Shown here one piece after another: positions 3,488-51,133 of a stretch of DNA of 64,000 nucleotides (the first letter of the stretch is position 1; each line of letters begins with the position of its first letter). Where the stretch lies: the NCBI GenBank assembly GCA_921293015.1, contig OV121086.1:26770254-26834253 (forward strand), in the 5' to 3' direction. The position numbers and the translations under genes are program-made. The notes below the pieces were generated by a model. That model had not been told where the DNA came from and ran no database searches. It was given only the letters and a program-made list of their open reading frames with translations. The stretch is from Phorcus lineatus. Its lineage: Eukaryota > Mollusca > Gastropoda > Trochida > Trochidae.

Positions 3488-5571
3488 TTATATGCATTGA
3501 AATATCTTGACAAGTTCTTTGTTATTTTCCGTAACATACAGTTTGTTCCCGTGTATACGTAGTCCCTGTGGACTATCAATCCCATCTCGTTCAGTCAGCA
3601 GATCTCTCACATACTCCCCTCTCTCAGTCAGCTGAACGATCTTGTTGCCCAAGTAATCCGCCACGATAACAGAACCAGTGTCTGTAGTTGTTACACCACC
3701 AGCTGTATAACACCAATTTTCTGTCAGCTTGTGTGTGTAGAGAACCTCCCCATGTTGTGTTACACAGTACACAGACTCTGACCCTTCATCTGCCACTACA
3801 ATATGACCTTGACGTGTTGTACACATGTACCATGGACTCTGTATCAGCTGCTGACCAGTGCTGGGTGTGATCACAGATCTCAGGACTCTCCCTGACAGAT
3901 CCAGGACGTCAATACTTGGAGGATCTCTACAACCTGCAGCCAGAGTCGTGTCACTGAGAGCGGTCAGACATGAGTACTTCTTCTTTGTTTTGATTGTGGT
4001 AATACGGACGCGGTCAGGAGTCAGCTTGATTAGTTCTATACTGTTGTGTGAGAAGTATGATACAGCTACTCTGTCATGGCTAATCTTTGTTATTGCATTA
4101 GGACGTGTATCAAGTTGTAATGGTGTGCAGTAAGACTTACCACCTTCAGTGTAGCAGGACTTGATGCTTTTATTGTTATAGTCTGTAACAACCAGTATCT
4201 TTGTACCACCAATAGTCAAAATCTCGATGTCATTGATATCTGGTGTCTTTGTATCATCCTTTGACTTTGTACTGACTGTAGACTGGAGTTGAGGCGTACA
4301 CTGAAGGCTAGACCATGTGACTGTAGATAGATGTGTAGTTGTATCCTTGATATTAGATCTATCTTCCATAAGTTTCAAATGACCAAGTTGTAAAGTCCTG
4401 TCAAGTTGATCAACATCCAACTGTTTCTCAAACTTTACCTTCATCGTTCTGTCTTCTTGTATATTCTGTCTATGCATCTCTGCAGTTATCTCCCCTGACT
4501 GACACAGCGTGTACATTTCATATAGATCCATAGGACTGTTTGATTGCAGGACTTGTTTGATGAACTCTGTGTACTGTTGATAAGTTTGCATCTCAATTTC
4601 TCCAGATTTTATCTGACCTCTCATTTCTCCAGTCTGCTTTTCAGTGAGCGTATCCAGTTCATCCAAGAGTTTCTTCTCCTTTCTTCTGATCAAATCCACG
4701 GCCTGCTGACTGACTCTTCTGATCTCTGATTGCAGAGAAGATTTGTGTTGTGTGATTTCCTCCACTTCTGATCTCTTACTCTTAAGAGTGTCTCCAGTTT
4801 GTTGTCTATGCAACTCTATATCATCATAGTTCTGCTTCAGTACTTGTTTCATTTCAGGAATCATTGAGTCGAGGGTGACAACAGAGTGACATTTCCTGTG
4901 GTAAACGATACAGCATTTTTGGCAAACAGCTTTCTGACAATCTCTGCAACAAAACTCAACTAAACAGTTGTGCTCCTTACAAGTGACTTTGCGTTTCTTG
5001 ACTTGTGGAGTTGATCCCAAAGGTTTGATCACATGATCAGTTTTACGAGGAGCTGTTGTGTGGACCTTAGCACACGCTTTGCAGAACTTGATGTCACAAT
5101 CTTCGCAAACTGATGTGGCCTGTGTTGCCTTCCCCAGATGCTCACAGGTGAAACAACAGTCTTCAACAGGATCTGAAAGACACAAGAATTATTTGTAAAC
5201 ATGAACTTGGAACAACTGATGATTTAGAGTGTAAAATTAATTTCTCTAGGTCATAACTTTTATAAATTTGAAATACATGAACGTCCTTGAGACACGAATG
5301 AATCCAAAAGACCTTGTATGAGGAAACTTGGCTTGAACTGATCACACCACTGATCCACTGGTTCTTGGGGTCGAGGAACTTTCGTCATCTGACAGCAGTT
5401 TGGACACAGGATGGATTTTGCCGTAATGGCGTCTCTCCGAGTTTTTGTATATTTGGTCAGACATTCCCTACAGAAGGTATGGTAACAGCCAAGTGTACAA
5501 GGGTCTTTGAAGGTCTCTGTGCAGATGTTACAGGACAGGAAATGTTCGTTCAGTTTGGTAAGAGCGTCCAT
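3488..5571 (-). CDS. TRIM-type RING E3 ligase, copy A (two coding exons)
   Basis: Exon 1 is 5571-5277, exon 2 is 5172-3488, and the 104-bp intron has GT at 5276-5275 and AG at 5174-5173. The joined frame gives 659 residues. A C3HC4 RING is seen at residues 14-59 (C14, C17, C29, H31, C34, C37, C56, C59). B-box 1 lies at about 105-145, B-box 2 at about 163-194 (CxxH...CxxC...CxxC...HxxxH), and a charged coiled coil at about 200-320. A Ser/Thr-rich linker at about 370-400 holds one full 18-residue unit plus a partial one. An NHL-like beta-propeller follows at about 405-659 (GHIVVAD, GSVIVADYLGNKIVQLTERG). The family acts as cytosolic E3 ubiquitin ligases; substrate and immune role are unknown here. 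The last exon-1 base is T where B and D have G, making the junction residue Tyr instead of Asp. ATG 5571 follows TTTCAG directly, so an upstream non-coding exon is expected. A minus-strand AATAAA lies at 3324-3319. This copy looks intact. Confidence 0.92.
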
Positions 5572-22151: not shown

Positions 22152-24448
22152 TTATCTGCATTGAAATATCTTGACATGTTCTTTGTTGTATTCTGTAACA
22201 CACAGTTTGTTCCCATGTACACGTATTCCCTGTGGACTATCAATCCCATCTTCTTCAGTCAGGATATCTCTCACATACTCTCCTCTCTCAGTCAGCTGGA
22301 CGATCTCGTTGCCTAAGTAATCCGCCAATATAACAGAACCAGTGTCTGTAGTTGTTACACCACCACCTGTATAACACCAATTTTCTGTCAGCTTGTATGT
22401 GTAGAGAACCTCCCCCTGTTGTGTTGCAAAGTAGACAGAATCTGACCCTCCATCTGACACTACAATGTGACCCTGACGTGTTGTACACATGTACCATGGA
22501 CCCTGTATCAGCTGCTGATCAATGCCAGGCGTGATCACAGACCTGACGACTCTCCCAGTCAGATCAAGGACGTCAATACTGGGAGGATCTATACAACCTG
22601 CAGCCAGAGTCGTGTCACTGAGAGCGGTCAAACCTCTGTACATCTTCTTTGTTTTGATTGTGGTGATATGGATTGGCTCAGGTGTAAGTTTGATTAGTTC
22701 TATACTGTTTTGTGACAAGTGTGATACAGCTACTCTGTCCTGGCTGATCTTTGTTATTGCGTGGGGACTTACATCAAGTTGTAATGATGCGCAGTAAGAC
22801 TTACCACCTTCAGTGTAGCAGGACTTGATGCTATTATTGTCATTGTCTGTAACAACCAGTATCTCTGAACCACCAATAGTCATAATCTCAATGTCAGTTA
22901 TATTTGATGTCTGTGTATCGTCCTTTGACTTTGTACTGACTGTAGACTGGAGTTGAGGTGTACACTGAAGGTTAGACCATGTGTCAGTACTAACTGTAGA
23001 CTGGGATTGAGGGGTACACTGAAGGCTAGACCATGTGTCAGTACTGACTGTAGACTGCAGTTGAGGTGTACACTGAAGGTTAGACCATGTGTTAGTACTA
23101 ACTGTAGACTGGAGTTGAGGTGTACCCTGAAGGTTAGACCATGTGTCAGTACTGACTGTAGATACACGTTTAGTCGTAGCCATGGTATTTTCCACAAATG
23201 ACAAATGACCAAGTAGTAAAGTCCTGTCAAGTTGATCCACATCTAGTTGTTTTTCAAACTCAACTTTCTTCGTTCTCTCTCTTTGTTTGTCTTTTCTCTG
23301 TATCTCAGCAGTTATCTCCCCTGACTGACACAGCGTGTACATTTCATACAGATCCATGGGACTGTTAGATTGCAGGACTTGTTTGATGAATTCAGTATAC
23401 TGTTGATATGTTTGCAGGTCAATTTCTCCAGATTTTATCTGAGCTCTCAGTTCTCCAGTCTGCTTCTCAGTGAGCGTATCCAGTTCATCCAGGAGTTTCT
23501 TCTCCTTTTTTCTGATCAGATCCACGGCCTGCTGACTGACTCTTCTAATTTCTGACTGCAGAGACGATTTGTGTTGTGTGATTTCCTCCACTTCTGATCT
23601 CCTACTCTTCAAAGTGTTCCCTGTTTGTTGTCGATGCAACTCTATATCATCATAGTTCTGCTGCAGTATTTGTTTCATTTCAGGAATCATTGAGTCTAGG
23701 GTGACAACAGAGTGACATTTCCTGTGGTAGACGATACAACATTTGTGGCAAACAGCCTTCTGACAATCTCTGCAAAAAAACTCAACCAAACAGTTTTGCT
23801 CCTTGCACATGACTTTGCGTTTCTTGATTTGTGGAGTTGATCCATCTCCAAGAGGTGAAATCTTGGCTTGTGGAGGTGATCCAGCTCGCAGAGATGAGAT
23901 CACGTGATCCCTTCCATTTGGCGCTGCCACATGTATTTTAGCACAGGCTTCACAGAACTTGATGTCGCAATCTTCACAAATTGAGTTGGCCTGTGTTGTT
24001 TTGCTGATGTGCTGACATGAGAAACAAATGTCTTCAATAGAGTCTGAAAGAATAAATGTAATTGAAAATAAGAATTGCTTTTTTCTTTGAAACCTTTAAA
24101 TAACATTTGACGATATGGATTGGTTAATAAATTTCATTAAGGTGGAGATGAATTACCTGAACTCGAATGAATGAACGAATCAAGAAGACCTTGTATGAGG
24201 AAACTTGGCTTGAATTGTCCACACCACTGATCCACTGGTTCTTGAGGTCGAGGAACTTTCGTCATTTCACAGCAGTTTGGACACAGGATTGATTTGGCAT
24301 TGATGGCTTCTTTCCGAGTTTTTGTATATTTGGTTAGACATAATCTACAGAAGGTATGGTAGCAGCCAAGTGTACAAGGGTCTTTGAAGGTCTCTGTGCA
24401 GATGATACAGGACAGGAAATGTTCGTTCAATTTGGTTAGAGCTTCCAT
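22152..24448 (-). CDS. TRIM-type RING E3 ligase, copy B (two coding exons)
   Basis: Exon 1 is 24448-24157 and exon 2 is 24043-22152. The 113-bp intron has GT at 24156-24155 and AG at 24045-24044. The joined frame is intact and gives 727 residues. Order: RING (C3HC4) at 14-59, B-box 1 (CFSC...CEDC...CEAC), a longer Lys/Pro/Gly spacer, B-box 2 (CKEQ...CRDC...CHKC...HRKCH), coiled coil, a linker with four 18-residue Ser/Thr-rich units, and the NHL-like propeller. In B-box 2, Gln replaces the usual second-position His (CKEQ instead of CKEH), so one zinc ligand may be lost or shifted. ATG 24448 follows a pyrimidine-rich acceptor-like tract, CAG appearing as TTTCAG before ATG. The native 3' UTR has been displaced by a LINE inserted just after the stop. 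Role by family: ubiquitin ligase; substrate unknown. Confidence 0.92.
22933..23162 (-). repeat. Coding minisatellite, 4 x 54 bp, in gene B
   Basis: Four near-identical 54-bp units lie in the linker between coiled coil and propeller and are translated on the minus strand as STVSTDTWSNLQCTPQLQ variants. The period keeps the reading frame. The units differ by a few substitutions (for example TNTW for TDTW and QGTP for QCTP). Genes A and D carry about one unit at the same point. Confidence 0.9.
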
Positions 24449-28504: not shown

Positions 28505-29396
28505 CTGATGAGTGTTTTGAAATATCTTGACATGTACACTGTCCCGTTCAGTAAGACACAGTTTGTTCCCACGGACAAACAATCCCATCTCGTTCAGTCA
28601 GCAGATCTCTCACATACTCCCCTCTCTCAGTCAGCTGGACGATCTTGTTGCCATGGTAATCAACCACGATAACAGAACCAGTGTCTGTAGTTGTTAAACC
28701 ACTAGTTGTATATAAAGCAGACCTCCTGTCAGCTTGTATGTGTAGAGAACCTCCCCCTGCTGTGTTACACAGTAGACAGAACCTGACACTCCATCTGCCG
28801 CTACAATGTGACCCTGACGTGTTGTACACATGCACAATGGTATCTCTAGCAGCTGCTGACTAGTTGTTTGGTGTGATCACAGATCTCAGGACTTTCCCCG
28901 ACAGATCCAAGACGTCAGTACTAGGAGGATCTTCACAACCTGCAGCCAGAGCCGTTTTTACTCCTTCTTTGATTTGATTGTTGAAACTCGGACTGGGTCA
29001 GGAGTCACTTTGATTAGTTCAATACTGTTGCGCGACCAGTATGATACAGCTACTCTGTCCTTGCTAATCTTTTTTATTGCATGTGTATCAAGTTGTAATG
29101 ATGTGCAGTAAGACTTACCCTGACTGACACAACGTCTACATATCATACAGATCCATGGGACTGTTTGATTGCAGGACTTGTCTGATGAACTCTGTGTACT
29201 GTTGATATATTTATAGGTCAGTTTCTCCAGATTTTATCTGACCTAGGTCTCCAGTCTGCTTCTCAGTGAGCGTATCCAGTTCATCCAGGAGTTTCTTCTA
29301 CTTTCTTCTGATCAGATCCACGGCCTGCTGACTGACTCGTCTGATCTCTGACTGCATAGAATATTTGTGTTGGTGTTGTGTGATTTCCTCCACAAA
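28505..29396 (-). pseudogene. TRIM pseudogene E (partial, internally deleted)
   Basis: The minus strand carries pieces of the TRIM long exon. A coiled-coil part lies at about 29396-29120 (related to the DELDTLTEKQTG and QSNSPMDLY regions), and a propeller part at about 29117-28520 (GKSYCTSLQL, KDRVAVSYWSRNSIELIK, GSVIVVDYHGNKIVQLTERG). Near 29117 the sequence jumps from coiled coil to propeller, so the linker and repeat array are gone. The RING exon, both B-boxes and the start are absent, and the propeller frame shifts more than once. It ends near 29396 in unrelated sequence. It looks like a broken tandem copy, not a retrocopy: no poly-A is seen. Confidence 0.85.
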
Positions 29397-30001: not shown

Positions 30002-33000
30002 CTATAAACAGTATTCTGTAAGATACAGTTTGTTGCCTTGTACACGAACTCCCTGCGGACTAACAATCCCATCTCGTTTTGTCAGCAGATCTCGGACATA
30101 CTCCCCTCTCTCAGTCAGCTGGACGATCTTGTTGCCATAGTAATCAGCCACGATAACAGAATCAGTGTCTGTAGTTGTTACACCACCTGTCCAATACCTT
30201 CCTGTCAGCTTGTATGTGTAGAGAACCTCCCCCTGTTGTGTTACACAGTAGACAGAACCTGACACTGCATCTACCACTACAATGTGACCCTGACGTGTTG
30301 TACACATGAACCATGGTCTCTGTATCAGCTGCTGACCATTGCTGGGTGTGATCACAGATCTCAGTACTCTCCCTGACAGATCCAGGACGTCGATACTGGG
30401 AGGGTCTTTACAACCTGCAGCCAGAGATGTTTCACTGAGAGCTGCCAGACAGATGTACTCCTTCTTTGTTTTGACTGTGGTAATACGGACTGGGTCAGGA
30501 GTAAGTTTGATTAGTTCAATACTGTTGTGTGAGATGTATGATACAGCTACTCTGTCCTGGCTAATCTTTGTTATTGTATGGGGTTTGTAATCAAATTGTA
30601 ATGATGTGCAGTACGGTGTACCACCTTTGGTGTACCAGGACTTGATGCTTTTATTTCTATAGTCAGTAACAACAAGTGTCTCTGTACGACCAATAGTCAA
30701 AATCTCAATATCATTAATATCTGGTGTCTGTCTGTCATCCTTTGATTTGGTACTAACTGTAGACTGGAGTTTAGGAGTATACTTAAGGTTAGACCACGTG
30801 TCAGTACTGACTGTAGAAGTACTAACTGTAGACTGGAGTTGAGGAGTACAATGAAGGCTAGACCATGTGTCAGTACTGACTGTAGAAGTACTAACTGTAG
30901 ACTGGAGTTGAGGAGTACACTGAAGGTTAGGCCATGTGTCAGTGCTGACTGTAGACTGGAGTTGAGGAGTACACTGAAGGTTAGGCCATGTGTCAGTGCT
31001 GACTGTAGACTGGAGTTGAGGAGTACACTGAAGGTTAGACCATGTGTCAGTACCGACTGTAGACTGGAGTTGAGGAGTACACTGAAGGTTAGGCCATGTG
31101 TCAGTGCTGACTGTAGACTGGAGTTGAGGAGTACACTGAAGGTTAGACCATGTGTCAGTACCGACTGTAGACTGGAGTTGAGGAGTACACTGAAGGTTAG
31201 GCCATGTGTCAGTGCTGACTGTAGACTGGAGTTTAGGAGTACACTTAAGGTTAGACCATGTGTCAGTGCTGACTGTAGACTGGAGTTTAGGAGTACACTG
31301 AAGGTTAGGCCATGTGTCAGTGCTGACTGTAGACTGGAGTTCAGGAGTACACTGAAGGTTAGACAATGTGTCAGTACTGATTGTAGACTGGGGTTGAGGA
31401 GTACACTTAAGGTTAGGCCATGTGTCAGTGCTGACTGTAGACTGGAGTTTAGGAGTACACTGAAGGTTAGGCCATGTGTCCGTGCTGACTGTAGACTGGA
31501 GTTTAGGAGTACACTTAAGGTTAGGCCATGTGTCAGTGCTGACTGTAGACTGGAGTTTAGGAGTACACTTAAGGTTAGGCCATGTGTCAGTGCTGACTGT
31601 AGACTGGAGTTTAGGAGTACACTTAAGGTTAGGCCATGTGTCAGTGCTGACTGTAGACTGGAGTTTAGGAGTACACTGAAGGTTAGGCCATGTGTCAGTG
31701 CTGACTGTAGACTGGAGTTTAGGAGTACACTGAAGGTTAGGCCATGTGTCAGTGCTGACTGTAGACTGGAGTTGAGGAGTACACTGAAGGTTAGACCATG
31801 TGTCAGTACCGACTGTAGACTGGAGTTGAGGAGTACACTGAAGGTTAGGCCATGTGTCAGTGCTGACTGTAGACTGGAGTTCAGGAGTACACTGAAGGTT
31901 AGACAATGTGTCAGTACTGATTGTAGACTGGGGTTGAGGAGTACACTTAAGGTTAGACCATGTGTCAATTCTGATTGTCGATAGAGGTACAATGGTATCC
32001 TTGATACATGATATGTTTTCCACAATCTTCAGATGACCAATTTGTAAAGTTCTATCAAGTTTATTCATATCCAGCTGTTTCACAAACTCAATCTTCTTGG
32101 TTCTCTCTCCTTGTTTGTCTTTTCTCTGTATCTCAGCAGTTATCTCCCCTGACTGACACAGCGTGTACATATCATATAGATCCATGGGACTGTTTGATTG
32201 CAAGACTTGTTTGATGAACTCTGTGTACTGTTGATATGTTTGCAGGTCAATTTCTCCAGATTTTATCTGGCCTCTCAGTTCTCCAGTCTGCTTCTCAGTG
32301 AGCGTATCCAGTTCATCCAGGAGTTTCTTCTCCTTCCTTCTGATCAGATCCATGGCCTGCTGACTGACTCGTCTGATCTCTGACTGCAGAGAAGATTTGT
32401 GTTGTGTGATTTCCTCCACTTCTGATCTTCTTCTCTTCAAAGTGTTCCCTGTTTGTTGTCGATACAACTCTATATCATCACAGTTCTGCTGCAGTACTTG
32501 TTTCATTTCAGGAATCATTGAGTCGAGGGTGACAACAGAGTGACATTTCCTGTGGTAGACGATACAACATTTGTGGCAAACAGCTTTCTGACAATCTCTG
32601 CAACAGAACTCAACCACAGAGTTGTTCTCCTTACACGTGACTTTGCGTTTCTTGGGTGGTGGAGTTGATCCATCTCCAAGAGGGGAGATCACGTGACCCC
32701 TTCCATTTGGCGCTGCCACATGTATTTTAACACAGGCTTCACAGAACTTGATGTCGCAATCTTCACAAATTGAGTTGGCCTGTGTTGTCCTGTTGATACG
32801 CTGACATGAGAAACACATGTCTTCAATAGGGTCTGAAAGAGTAACATATTTGAAAATAAGAATTGTTTTATTCATGGAAACCTTAAAATAACATTAAACG
32901 ATATGGATTTTATAATAACGTTCATAGAGGTTGATGAAGTACCTGAACTCGAATGAATGAACGAATCAAGAAGTCCTTGTATGATGAAACTCGGCTTGAG

Positions 33001-33234
33001 CTGCTCACACCACTGATCCACTCGTTCTTGAGGTCGAGGAACTTTAGTCATCTGACAGCAGTTTGGACACAGGATGGATTTTGCAGTAATGGCGTCTCTT
33101 CGAGATTTTGTATATTTGGTAAGACATTGTCTACAGAAGGTATGGTAGCAGCCAAGAGTACAAGGGTCTTTGAAGGTCTCTTTGCAGGTGTTACAGGACA
33201 GGAAATGTTCATTCAGTTTATTAAGAGCGTCCAT
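30002..33234 (-). CDS. TRIM-type RING E3 ligase, copy C with expanded linker
   Basis: Exon 1 is 33234-32943 and exon 2 is 32832-30002. The 110-bp intron has GT at 32942-32941 and AG at 32834-32833. The joined frame gives 1040 residues against 659 in copy A. RING at 14-59 has all C3HC4 ligands (C14, C17, C29, H31, C34, C37, C56, C59). B-box 1 is complete. In B-box 2 the usual second-position His is replaced (CKENNS), so that finger is altered. The coiled coil is followed by 22 Ser/Thr/Trp-rich 18-residue units and then the NHL-like propeller. The protein ends NKLYLTEYCL, without the final VKIFQ strand found in A, B and D, so its last propeller blade is altered. ATG 33234 sits directly after TTTCAG. 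An upstream in-frame ATG at 33360 is not used in this model because it lies in the likely 5' intron. Confidence 0.9.
30750..31982 (-). repeat. Coding minisatellite, 22 units of 54 bp, in gene C
   Basis: Twenty-two units encode STVSTDTWPNLQCTPKLQ variants. Two units at the propeller end carry an extra 15 bp (a repeated STVST). Units 1-3 and 11-13 share the same rare variants (CTPQPQ, then STISTDTLSNLQCTPELQ), implying that a block of about ten units was duplicated. Because 54 is divisible by three, other frames stay open too, which explains the long antisense frame at 30839-31984 and the sense-strand one at 30697-32025. I do not regard those as genes. Confidence 0.92.
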
Positions 33235-45640: not shown

Positions 45641-46500
45641 GTGTAATTCCTACTCGTTACAGGAACCACGTGTTAAGATTGAATACAAAGTAATAGTAGA
45701 ACATCTGTGAAATAGAGCCACTGGGTCCATGAAAGGCTAAAAGTTGTAATTTCTGCTCGTTACAAGGACCACGTGTTAAGATTTAATACAAAGTAGTAGT
45801 AGAACATCTGTGAAATAGAGCCACTGGGTCCATGAAAGGCTAAAAGTTGTACTTTCTGCTCGTTACAAGGACCACGTGTTAAGATTTAATACAAAGTAGT
45901 AGTAGAACATCTGTGAAATAGAGCCACTGGGTCCATGAAAGGCTAAAAGTTGTAATTTCTGCTCGTTACAAGGACCACGTGTTAAGATTTAATACAAAGT
46001 AGTAGTAGAACATCTGTGAAATAGAGCCACTGGGTCCATGAAAGGCTAAAAGTTGTACTTTCTGCTCGTTACAAGGACCACGTGTTAAGATTTAATACAA
46101 AGTAGTAGTAGAACATCTGTGAAATAGAGCCACTGGGTCCATGAAAGGCTAAAAGTTGTACTTTCTGCTCGTTACAAGGACCACGTGTTAAGATTTAATA
46201 CAAAGTAGTAGTAGAACATCTGTGAAATAGAGCCACTGGGTCCATGAAAGGCTAAAAGTTGTACTTTCTGCTCGTTACAAGGACCACGTGTTAAGATTTA
46301 ATACAAAGTAGTAGTAGAACATCTGTGAAATAGAGCCACTGGGTCCATGAAAGGCTAAAAGTTGTACTTTCTGCTCGTTACAAGGACCACGTGTTAAGAT
46401 TTAATACAAAGTAGTAGTAGAACATCTGTGAAATAGAGCCGCTGGGTCCATGAAAGGCTAAAAGTTGTACTTTCTGCTCGTTACAGGAACCACGTGTTAA
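45641..46500. repeat. 103-bp tandem repeat between LINE ORF1 and ORF2
   Basis: CACGTG boxes recur every 103 bp; the CCACGTG start points are 45666, 45769, 45872, 45975, 46078, 46181, 46284, 46387 and 46490. Eight full units are nearly identical, with edge units more diverged. Each has the palindrome CACGTG (a bHLH E-box), AATAGAGCCACTGGGTCCAT and CTGCTCGTTACA. More diverged copies seem present near 46560 and 46975. The open frame 46378-46569 is a by-product. Confidence 0.93.
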
Positions 46501-47158
46501 GACTGCATACACATTTATAGAACCATAGGCTCCGTGAACATTTAAGCATTTGTAATTCACTTGTAGCACTACACGTGTTTTTTCATGTTCACTGATAACC
46601 TAGTGGTTTTGAGGACTGTTTTAGTTTTTACGAGATTGTACAATGTCAAAAAAGTTTGGTCAAATAGCATAACGAGTGTTTCACAAATCGGGTCTCATTA
46701 GTAATTTAAAACTTAGAGACGATAATTGACACTTTGAAAACCAATTGATATCAAACACTCATGTCAAAAGAAGAACTTATATAACTAATATTCTTTTTGT
46801 TCTATGGATATTTTTTCAATACACAGAACACATGATTCTAAAAGCATTTCCGATGTATACTCACAGTTAGTGTCCATATGAAAATCCAAGTGACAGTTCA
46901 CATAAAGTAATCCAAAGAATCACAGGATCCGTGAAAGGTAATCCAGCAAACATTTGACACTCACTGCTCAGTAGCAAACCACGTGTTGCGAGTGCACGTG
47001 CTTTACATGCACACCGATGTGCTAGTGGTTTAATGACTAGTTTTAATGGCAAATGTTTTATAACAAAATATATATATATATTTGCAAGTGAGATGCATCA
47101 AGATTACAAAGATGCACTTACATTTTAGATAAATAAGATTTTAAATAAATGATGTTTG

Positions 47159-49393: not shown

Positions 49394-51133
49394 TTATATA
49401 TTTTGAAATATCTTAACATGTCCACTGTCCTCTTCAGTGACATATAGTTTGTTCCCGTGTACACGTATTCCCTGTGGACTCACAATCCCATCTTGTTTAG
49501 TCAGCAGATCTCTCACATACTCCCCTCTCTCAGTCAGCTGGACGATCTTGTTGCCATAGTAATCACCCACGATTACAGAACCAGTGTCTGTCGTTGTTAT
49601 ACCACCTGATGTACAAAACAAACCTTCTGTCAATTTGTATGTGTAAAGAACCTCCCCCTGTTGTATTACGCAGTAGACAGAACCTGACCATCCCTCTACC
49701 ACTACAATGTGACCCTGACGTGTTGTACACATGTGCCATGGTCTCTGTATCAGCTGCTGATCAATGCTGGGTGTGATCACAGACCTGACGATTCTCCCTG
49801 ACAGATCCAGGACGTCAATACTGGAAGGATCTTCACAAGTTGCAGCCAGAGTCGTGTCACTGAGAGCTGCCAGACATATGTACTCCTTCTTTGTTTTGAC
49901 TGTGGTAATACGCACTGGGTCAGGAGTAAGTTTGATTAGTTCTATACTGTTGTGTGACCAAGTGTGATACAGCTACTCTGTCCTGGCTAATCTTTGTTAT
50001 TGTATGGGGTTTGGAATCAAGTTGTAATGATGTGCAGTAAGACTTACCACCTTCAGTGTAGCAGGACTTGATGCTGTTATTGTTATGGTCTGTAACAACC
50101 AGTGTCTCTGTACCTCCAACAGTCAAAATCTCAATGTCCTCGATATCTGGTGTCTTTGTATCATCCTTTGACTTGGTACTGACTGTAGACTGGAGTTGAG
50201 GTGTACCCTGAAGGCTAGACCATGTGTCAGTACTGACTGTAGATACACGTTTAGTTGTATCCTTGATACATGATCTGTTTTCCACAACCTTCAAATAACC
50301 AAGTTGTAAGGTCCTGTCAAGTTGATCCACATCCAGCTGTTTATAAAACTCAACTTTCTTCCTTCTGTCTCCTTGTTTGTCTTTTTTCTGTATTTCAGCA
50401 GTTATCTCCCCTGACTGACACAGCGTGTACATATCATACAGATCCATGGGACTGTTTGATTGCAGGACTTGTTTGATGAACTCTGTGTACTGTTGATATG
50501 TTTGCAGTTCAATTTCTCCAGATTTTATCTGAGCTCTCAGATCTCCAGTCTGCTTTTCAGTGAGCGTATCCAGTTTATCAAGAAGTTTCTTTTCCTTTCT
50601 TCTGATCAGATCCACGGCCTGCTGACTGACTCTTCTGATCTCTGACTGCAGAGAAGATTTGTGTTGTGTGATTTCCTCCACTTCTGATCTCTTAATATCC
50701 AACTTGTCTCCAGTTTGTTGTCGATGCAACTCTATATCATCATAGTTCTTCTGCAGTACTTGTTTCATTTCAGGAATCATTGCGTCGAGGGTGACAACAG
50801 AGTGACATTTCCTGTGGTAAACGATACAGCAGTTTTGGCAAACAGCTTCCTGACAATCTTTGCAACAAAACTCAACTAAACAGTTGTGCTCCTTACACGC
50901 GACTTTGCATTTCTTTAGTTGTTGAGTTGATCCCAAAGGTTTTATCACGTTATCAGTTTTGCGAGGAGCTGTTGTGTGGACTTTAGCACAAGCTTTGCAG
51001 AACTTGATGTCACAATCTTTGCAAACTGATGTGGCCTGTGTTGTCTTCCCCGGATGCTCACCTGAGAAACATACGTCTACAACAGGACCTGAAAGACACA
51101 AGCATTATTTGTAAACATGAACTTGGAACAACT

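Follow-up and report, generated by a model that had tools for sequence, protein, structure and literature searches.

How does one gene of a family come to carry 22 copies of a short linker unit that its paralogues carry once or a few times, and what might such an array do? The question is posed by gene C, which lies with its paralogues A, B and D in the window, the whole 64,000-nucleotide stretch of DNA analysed here.

Gene C is read from the reverse strand, as are the other gene features of the window given below. Its first predicted coding exon (32943..33234), with the donor sequence TCAG/GTACTT, encodes a C3HC4 RING finger. The second (30002..32832), behind the acceptor CTTTCAG/AC, encodes the B-box, coiled coil, array and NHL propeller. 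Joined at these GT and AG signals, the exons give an open reading frame of 1040 amino acids with no inner stop. Pfam matched the RING (zf-C3HC4, 3e-7, 30.6 bits against a cut-off of 21), the B-box (PF00643, 2.9e-5, 24.6 bits against a cut-off of 24.1) and the NHL (7.4e-6); the B-box fell below the cut-off in A, B and D. No filamin domain was matched at E 0.1 in six proteins. A coiled-coil helix is predicted, at low confidence, at 32261..32515 (residues 121-205 of the 957-residue frame). The matching long helix in the gene A model covers residues 109-193 (pLDDT ~45-68). The coiled coil is assigned from the model and from sequence matches, with no coil predictor; gene A matched the RBCC chain of TIF1-beta (7-215, 2.2e-8) and the TRIM3 chain (62-268, 1.4e-5).

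The NHL propeller of C (30002..30712) is without its final strand. The protein ends in KLYLTEYCL, whereas the paralogues run ~10 residues further, to VKIFQ (for example, NKEHVKIFQC). In the gene A model, these last ~10 codons correspond to the final strand (558-564). After 24 bp, the 3' flank of C is unlike that of the relatives compared. By its domains, C is a gene for a TRIM-NHL type E3 ligase without filamin; the incomplete propeller is a reservation and ligase activity is predicted. The original prediction had named the RING, coiled coil and propeller and had placed the repeats in the linker between the last two. These assignments hold. Two details of its layout changed: the RING sits in an exon of its own, and the propeller, described as mostly kept, is not whole.

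The array occupies 30749..31966 and consists of 22 head-to-tail, in-frame copies of the 18-residue unit DTWPNLQCTPQLQSTVST. Twenty units are of 54 bp and two are of 69 bp, each of the latter having 15 extra bp that double STVST. Tandem Repeats Finder scored the array at 1883 for 30887-31978. It encodes 406 residues, of which 36% are Ser or Thr, 20 are Trp and 21 are Cys, with a net charge of -8. Hence, the nearly 400 added Ser/Thr/Trp-rich residues that had been predicted are present in the sequence. So are the predicted copy numbers of 22 in C, four in B and one in each of A and D. The array also lies where it was expected (30750-31982), except that the latter position is 16 bp beyond the last 54-bp unit. 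When the first 54 bp of the units are compared, there are 13 distinct types in irregular order, the pair c-d occurs three times, and units differ on average at 3.6 of 54 bases.

Single units are found in gene A (4268..4318, 9 bp short at the upstream edge) and gene D (50175..50228). The frame of D (49394-51101) changes inside the propeller. Gene B has four units (22932..23147; Tandem Repeats Finder score 397 for 22933-23162). Across the clade with the 54-bp unit there is one copy in each of L057, A, L059, D and L060, two in L058, which is a close relative outside the window, four in B and 22 in C. Just downstream of C, 28572-29393 is the relic of a further paralogue, with coiled-coil and propeller fragments in shifted frames. 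The L060 locus (G000:C11:26188500-26195200) has two separate frames ~2.5 kb apart with an 11-bp tandem array in between.

The 54-bp unit is confined to this clade. We searched the 958-Mb assembly (74 contigs) with a 108-bp, two-unit DNA query and obtained 18 matches genome-wide, all in the eight genes of the clade, on contig C11. A degenerate unit pattern, allowing up to 2 mismatches, gave 32 matches, all in seven of the eight genes; the reversed control gave 0. A protein query gave 62 matches at E 10, and the 15 at E <=1e-3 were all in the eight clade genes. The unit is absent from 16 further relatives fetched (L061-L076), where the linker runs uninterrupted as approximately SNLxDTPKLLSTVST-KSKDD. 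Spread as a mobile element or genome-wide repeat was considered and is not supported: the 54-bp unit is in eight genes only, and a 39-bp unit described below is in two at E 1e-3, with a third (L090) too diverged for that search. One scan of viral contigs gave no relative of gene A. In a control run of Tandem Repeats Finder on 20 loci (90,320 bases) there were 20 rows. Only two of these were inside frames of >=300 amino acids: in L058, the 54-bp array, and in L057, a 24-bp unit repeated 2.0 times. Minisatellites outside long coding frames were seen at L061:571-963 (42 bp x 9.4, just upstream of the RING exon) and L075:171-1182 (73 bp x 13.9). In the window, a 103-bp unit is repeated 8.4 times, with copies 98% alike, at 45642-46502; we take the adjoining frames to resemble LINE reverse transcriptase.

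The family is very large. Each of three genome searches gave at least 150 matches, in overlapping lists, and frames longer than 620 amino acids made up 5, 7 and 0 of the 150 matches listed. The notion that all long frames are arrays was rejected. Among the matches listed are eight distinct frames of this length, and only B, C and L077 have arrays. In L078 and L079, on another contig (G000:C16), the linker has been enlarged by duplication of the linker, together with part of the propeller in L078. L085 and L086 (G000:C25) have another architecture; their propellers match the family, but the part fetched has a long Lys/Arg-rich region ahead of the propeller, where a coiled coil is usual. L087 shows no array in the part fetched. 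Frame length overlooks arrays that are ended by a stop, and L088 was found only via its array. An expansion of E3 ligase genes has been reported in clams, in passages that do not name TRIM genes (PMC11592408).

What the unit encodes is suggested by the structural models. In the best AlphaFold2 model of gene A, the propeller has 24 strands, and the first of them, at 298-305, is the unit tail PQLQSTVS. We grouped the strands as 1 + 5x4 + 3, which would be a complete six-bladed NHL propeller. The model was built from five aligned sequences and has a mean pLDDT of 60.8; ten-residue blocks from 301 onward average 57-91, and block 291-300 averages 59. The best PDB match is the TRIM2 NHL domain (TM 0.81 on target, 16% identity), and the nearest solved structures to the model are the NHL domains of TRIM2 and TRIM3 (TM 0.77-0.81 on target, 15-17% identity). 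In the Mei-P26 NHL domain, according to the passages available from PMC9070667, the first N-terminal strand complements the sixth sheet in a velcro-like closure. For human TRIM NHL domains, the corresponding passages of PMC9634614 place both ends of the chain in the sixth sheet. Since PQLQSTVS is the predicted first propeller strand, and this strand seals the ring in solved TRIM-NHL propellers, we infer that each unit comprises a short spacer and a copy of the predicted closing strand.

The model of C itself is poorer (mean pLDDT 51.0, pTM 0.36). The last propeller strand is missing and blade 6 is of low confidence, with a pLDDT <50 at 932-957. Across most of the array one beta strand is drawn per unit, at a pLDDT of ~70-78. 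This beta-solenoid signature comes from a program with a reported false-positive class: AlphaFold2 is described, in the excerpt available of PMC11795689, as inventing beta-solenoids for repeats.

How could the first unit have arisen? Upstream of the array in C lies an ancestral linker segment, 'unit 0' (ENISCIKDTIVPLSTIRI, 31967..32020), which by position and by homology to array-less paralogues is the site of the likely seed. When the unit consensus was compared with the whole exon in seven of the 16 array-less relatives, its best 54-bp match was in every case the linker segment, scoring higher than each of 200 base shuffles. The tail, being the old strand, contributes much of this match. The 24-bp unit head matches the seed head at 9-14 of 24 bases in 14 array-less genes tested. 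The head match is distinctive in seven C15-group genes, where only 1-9 upstream-exon windows are as good, and in L071 (3 of 432 windows). It is not distinctive in the other six (48-127 windows as good). Within the clade, L058 matches at 13 of 24 bases (best of 867 windows); D and L060 match at 10, C at 9 and B at 5, none of them distinctively. Taken together, the comparisons make it likely, though not proven, that the ancestral linker segment (SNLxDTPKLLSTVST) was duplicated to give the first 54-bp unit. In gene D, exact arms of 14 bp lie 54 bp apart; the arms of L060, which likewise has one copy, are just 4 bp. Where 9 bp have been lost, in three genes, the arms are of 10 bp with a spacing of 45 bp and there is still one copy; these three genes form one clade.

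The relationships among the multi-copy genes are less simple. Of the two L058 units, the last most resembles the last unit of C (3 differences, compared with 5 to 9 for other C units) and the first most resembles the first unit of B (2 differences, compared with 3 to 8 for C units). In the B-box 2/coiled coil, C reaches its lowest dS with L058 (0.167). The propeller values are a dS of 0.207 and a dN of 0.146 for C and L058, and 0.215 and 0.104 for C and L057. A coiled-coil DNA tree of 34 rows does not resolve B, C, D and L058 and does not recover C and L058 as sisters. Hence, we dropped L058 as the sister of C; the kinship comes from the last unit and 5' half only, and the propellers point elsewhere. 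This leaves the odds of our main reading the same, because that reading needs only the rise to 22 seen in C alone. One clade for B, C and L058 alone was not rejected (p 0.31) and is not resolved by the tree, so the 54-bp clade may have gained its multi-copy states in more than one event. The genes of the clade are close relatives, perhaps mosaic, and the rise to 22 copies would be mostly particular to C.

A second array, with a 39-bp (13-residue) unit, is found at the same linker site in three genes ~10.5 Mb away. In L090 there are five copies, and the strand can still be recognised clearly in them (PQLLSKVST, SKLLSRVST and the like). L077 has 19 copies (18.6 by Tandem Repeats Finder) in an open 805-residue frame that continues through a full-length propeller. 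Its neighbour L088 has 23 copies (22.6 by Tandem Repeats Finder) and is broken shortly past the array. The two long arrays are Thr/Pro-rich, GTTVPTLRPAPN. PKLLSTVST is matched at 7 (L077) and 8 (L088) of 9 positions by the copy adjoining the propeller, and at 0-4 by the remaining 18 and 22 copies. Edge copies that escape homogenisation would look alike without selection. In the coiled-coil tree, the 39-bp genes fall in another clade (100/99), with array-less groups in between. A single clade for the six multi-copy genes was rejected (AU p 7e-6), in a test for which the group was defined by its arrays and which was run after the tree had been seen. The fewest changes of the multi-copy state on the tree were 4, counted on 27 of the 34 rows; the neighbours L091-L096 and L103, several of whose fetched pieces stop within the linker, were left out. 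Judged from these sequences, the same linker segment was amplified separately, with a 39-bp unit, in another branch of the family.

From the open-framed array of C, its confinement to one clade, the separately arisen second array and the loss of the strand motif from the inner copies of L077 and L088, we draw an explanation to which we give somewhat better than even chances. It is that a coding minisatellite has arisen repeatedly at a domain junction that tolerates it; the added copies most likely lengthen a flexible tether, with the propeller closed by the last copy. An in-frame duplication of the ancestral linker segment would have given the first 54-bp unit. Near-identical arms 54 bp apart would then have allowed copy number to rise by slippage or unequal exchange. 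Such growth would be tolerated if the last copy still supplied the closing strand and each added unit kept the frame. In C the final strand-motif copy, PKLQSTVS (30752..30775), adjoins the propeller and is by homology the copy that would close it. The propeller would need just one adjacent closing strand, and surplus copies could become tether. The inner copies would make a long, flexible, Ser/Thr/Gln/Pro-rich tether, ~388 residues longer in C than in one-copy paralogues, and may widen the reach between the coiled-coil dimer and the propeller. The original prediction had offered a 'variable spacer' as one possible role; this is compatible with the evidence and is the reading we prefer. The prediction did not include the closing-strand copy in each unit, the second array of another period, the absence of clear constraint within the array or the loss of the last strand of C, with its hint of decay. 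That changes in the array do not differ from neutral, as given below, also fits the tether reading. Several points count against it, including the mixed kinship of C and L058 and the small alignment behind the gene A model described above. The unit head matches the seed at only 9-14 of 24 bases in array-less genes and at 9 in C. AlphaFold2 draws a strand per unit in the C array, not disorder. Finally, C is without its last strand, so its propeller may not close.

A serious rival, which we hold to be possible rather than probable, is decay of the gene. On this view C lost its C-terminal propeller strand, and its coding minisatellite reached 22 copies by drift, in the absence of opposing selection. 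The truncation of C and its unrelated 3' flank are as expected on this account. The array has 11 nonsynonymous and 6 synonymous distinct changes (a ratio of 0.54 per site), which does not depart from the neutral expectation (a nonsynonymous fraction of 0.737, p 0.41); with 17 changes there is little power, and weak constraint is possible. We rejected the open array frame as proof of coding: two coding-strand frames and one opposite-strand frame are open, and 17 random changes would spare the array a stop with a probability of 0.41. Among six genes compared, C has the largest number of unique propeller changes (28 nonsynonymous to 15 synonymous, a ratio of 0.59); elsewhere the ratio is 0.45-0.59, apart from 2.37 in L058 (15 nonsynonymous to 2 synonymous). 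Two genes of its clade, D and L060, already have broken frames, as does the array gene L088 past its array. Conversely, C keeps an open frame of 1040 amino acids through both exons, with GT and AG signals, and L077 carries 19 copies together with a full-length propeller frame. The unique changes of C in the B-box 2/coiled coil are also at odds with decay. These number 12 nonsynonymous to 8 synonymous, a ratio of 0.37, which is inside the 0.10-0.62 of the other five unbroken-frame genes and below the 0.98 of broken D (16 to 4), although broken L060 has 0.16 (2 to 3). Thus, the coiled coil of C looks constrained like that of its relatives, and clear constraint within the array was not detected with so few changes.

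The other role suggested by the original prediction was a multivalent binding or modification platform, in which the STDTW..CTP units would serve as docking or phosphorylation sites. The abundance of Trp, Cys, Ser and Thr in the 406 residues is consistent with this, and TP is present in all 22 units. However, Trp is gone from 2 of the 22 units and Cys from 1, and the synonymous excess is not significant. Furthermore, the long Thr/Pro-rich 39-bp arrays are without the STDTW..CTP motif of the C units. We consider a platform unlikely.

More unlikely still is that the inner copies are spare closing strands, which would close the propeller too, or complement a neighbour in trans, and so replace the last strand that C has lost. 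The strand motif is retained at 5-8 of 9 positions in all 22 C units, and of the six genes in the clade whose exon 2 frame is unbroken, C alone lacks its own last strand. Against this stand the inner copies of L077 and L088, which lost the motif, and the poorly modelled blade 6 of C. A bolder form of the idea treats the junction before the NHL propeller as an evolvable hot spot. Spare strands would let propellers reclose on other copies or swap between family members, giving E3 receptors switchable in length and partner, with C using array strands for its lost last strand. We give this whole proposal only a slim chance. It is highly improbable that the copy number of C is an assembly artefact: tandem arrays are hard to assemble, and the number was read from one assembly, but the 13 unit types in irregular order, the 1.2-kb size, the 74-contig assembly and the similar arrays in other genes all argue otherwise.

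The series of 0, 1, 2, 4, 5, 19, 22 and 23 copies offers natural material on how the length of a tether from coiled-coil dimer to recognition domain bears on E3 ligase action. One junction, amplified separately with two periods from the same seed, a predicted propeller seal, would show the birth of a coding minisatellite from a folded domain. Pairwise dN/dS within the clade is higher in the propeller (0.44-0.88) than in the B-box 2/coiled coil (0.14-0.36). Because the propellers of this large family change faster than the coiled coils, the array could add another dimension to the diversity of recognition.

In known coding minisatellites, such as those of mucin or spidroin type, the protein repeats vary in length. 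The array of C is alike in its in-frame, head-to-tail units and in a copy number that differs between paralogues, here within one assembly. It is, however, a coding minisatellite of an unusual kind: the unit is a piece of a folded domain's own predicted closure element, and such arrays arose at least twice at one junction of one family. A literature search gave no publication on tandem linker repeats in TRIM-NHL genes, judged by title or start of abstract, which is not proof of absence.

Members of the TRIM2/3/71 subgroup carry filamin between the coiled coil and NHL; the six proteins searched here differ in giving no such match. The wider set of TRIM-NHL E3 ligases (TRIM2, TRIM3, TRIM71, Brat, Mei-P26 and Thin), as far as the passages available from PMC9070667 and PMC9634614 describe them, are like the present genes in having a RING, B-box, coiled coil and six-bladed NHL propeller, predicted in our case, and in the placing of the first strand, also predicted here, in blade 6. 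The present genes differ in their linker, with its tandem closing strand and spacer, and in belonging to a very large family with many tandem copies. A last parallel is with nascent propellers that arise by blade amplification, as set out in the portion available of PMC6805158. In both cases a propeller element has been amplified; here, the strand and spacer would have been amplified outside the ring, rather than a whole blade.
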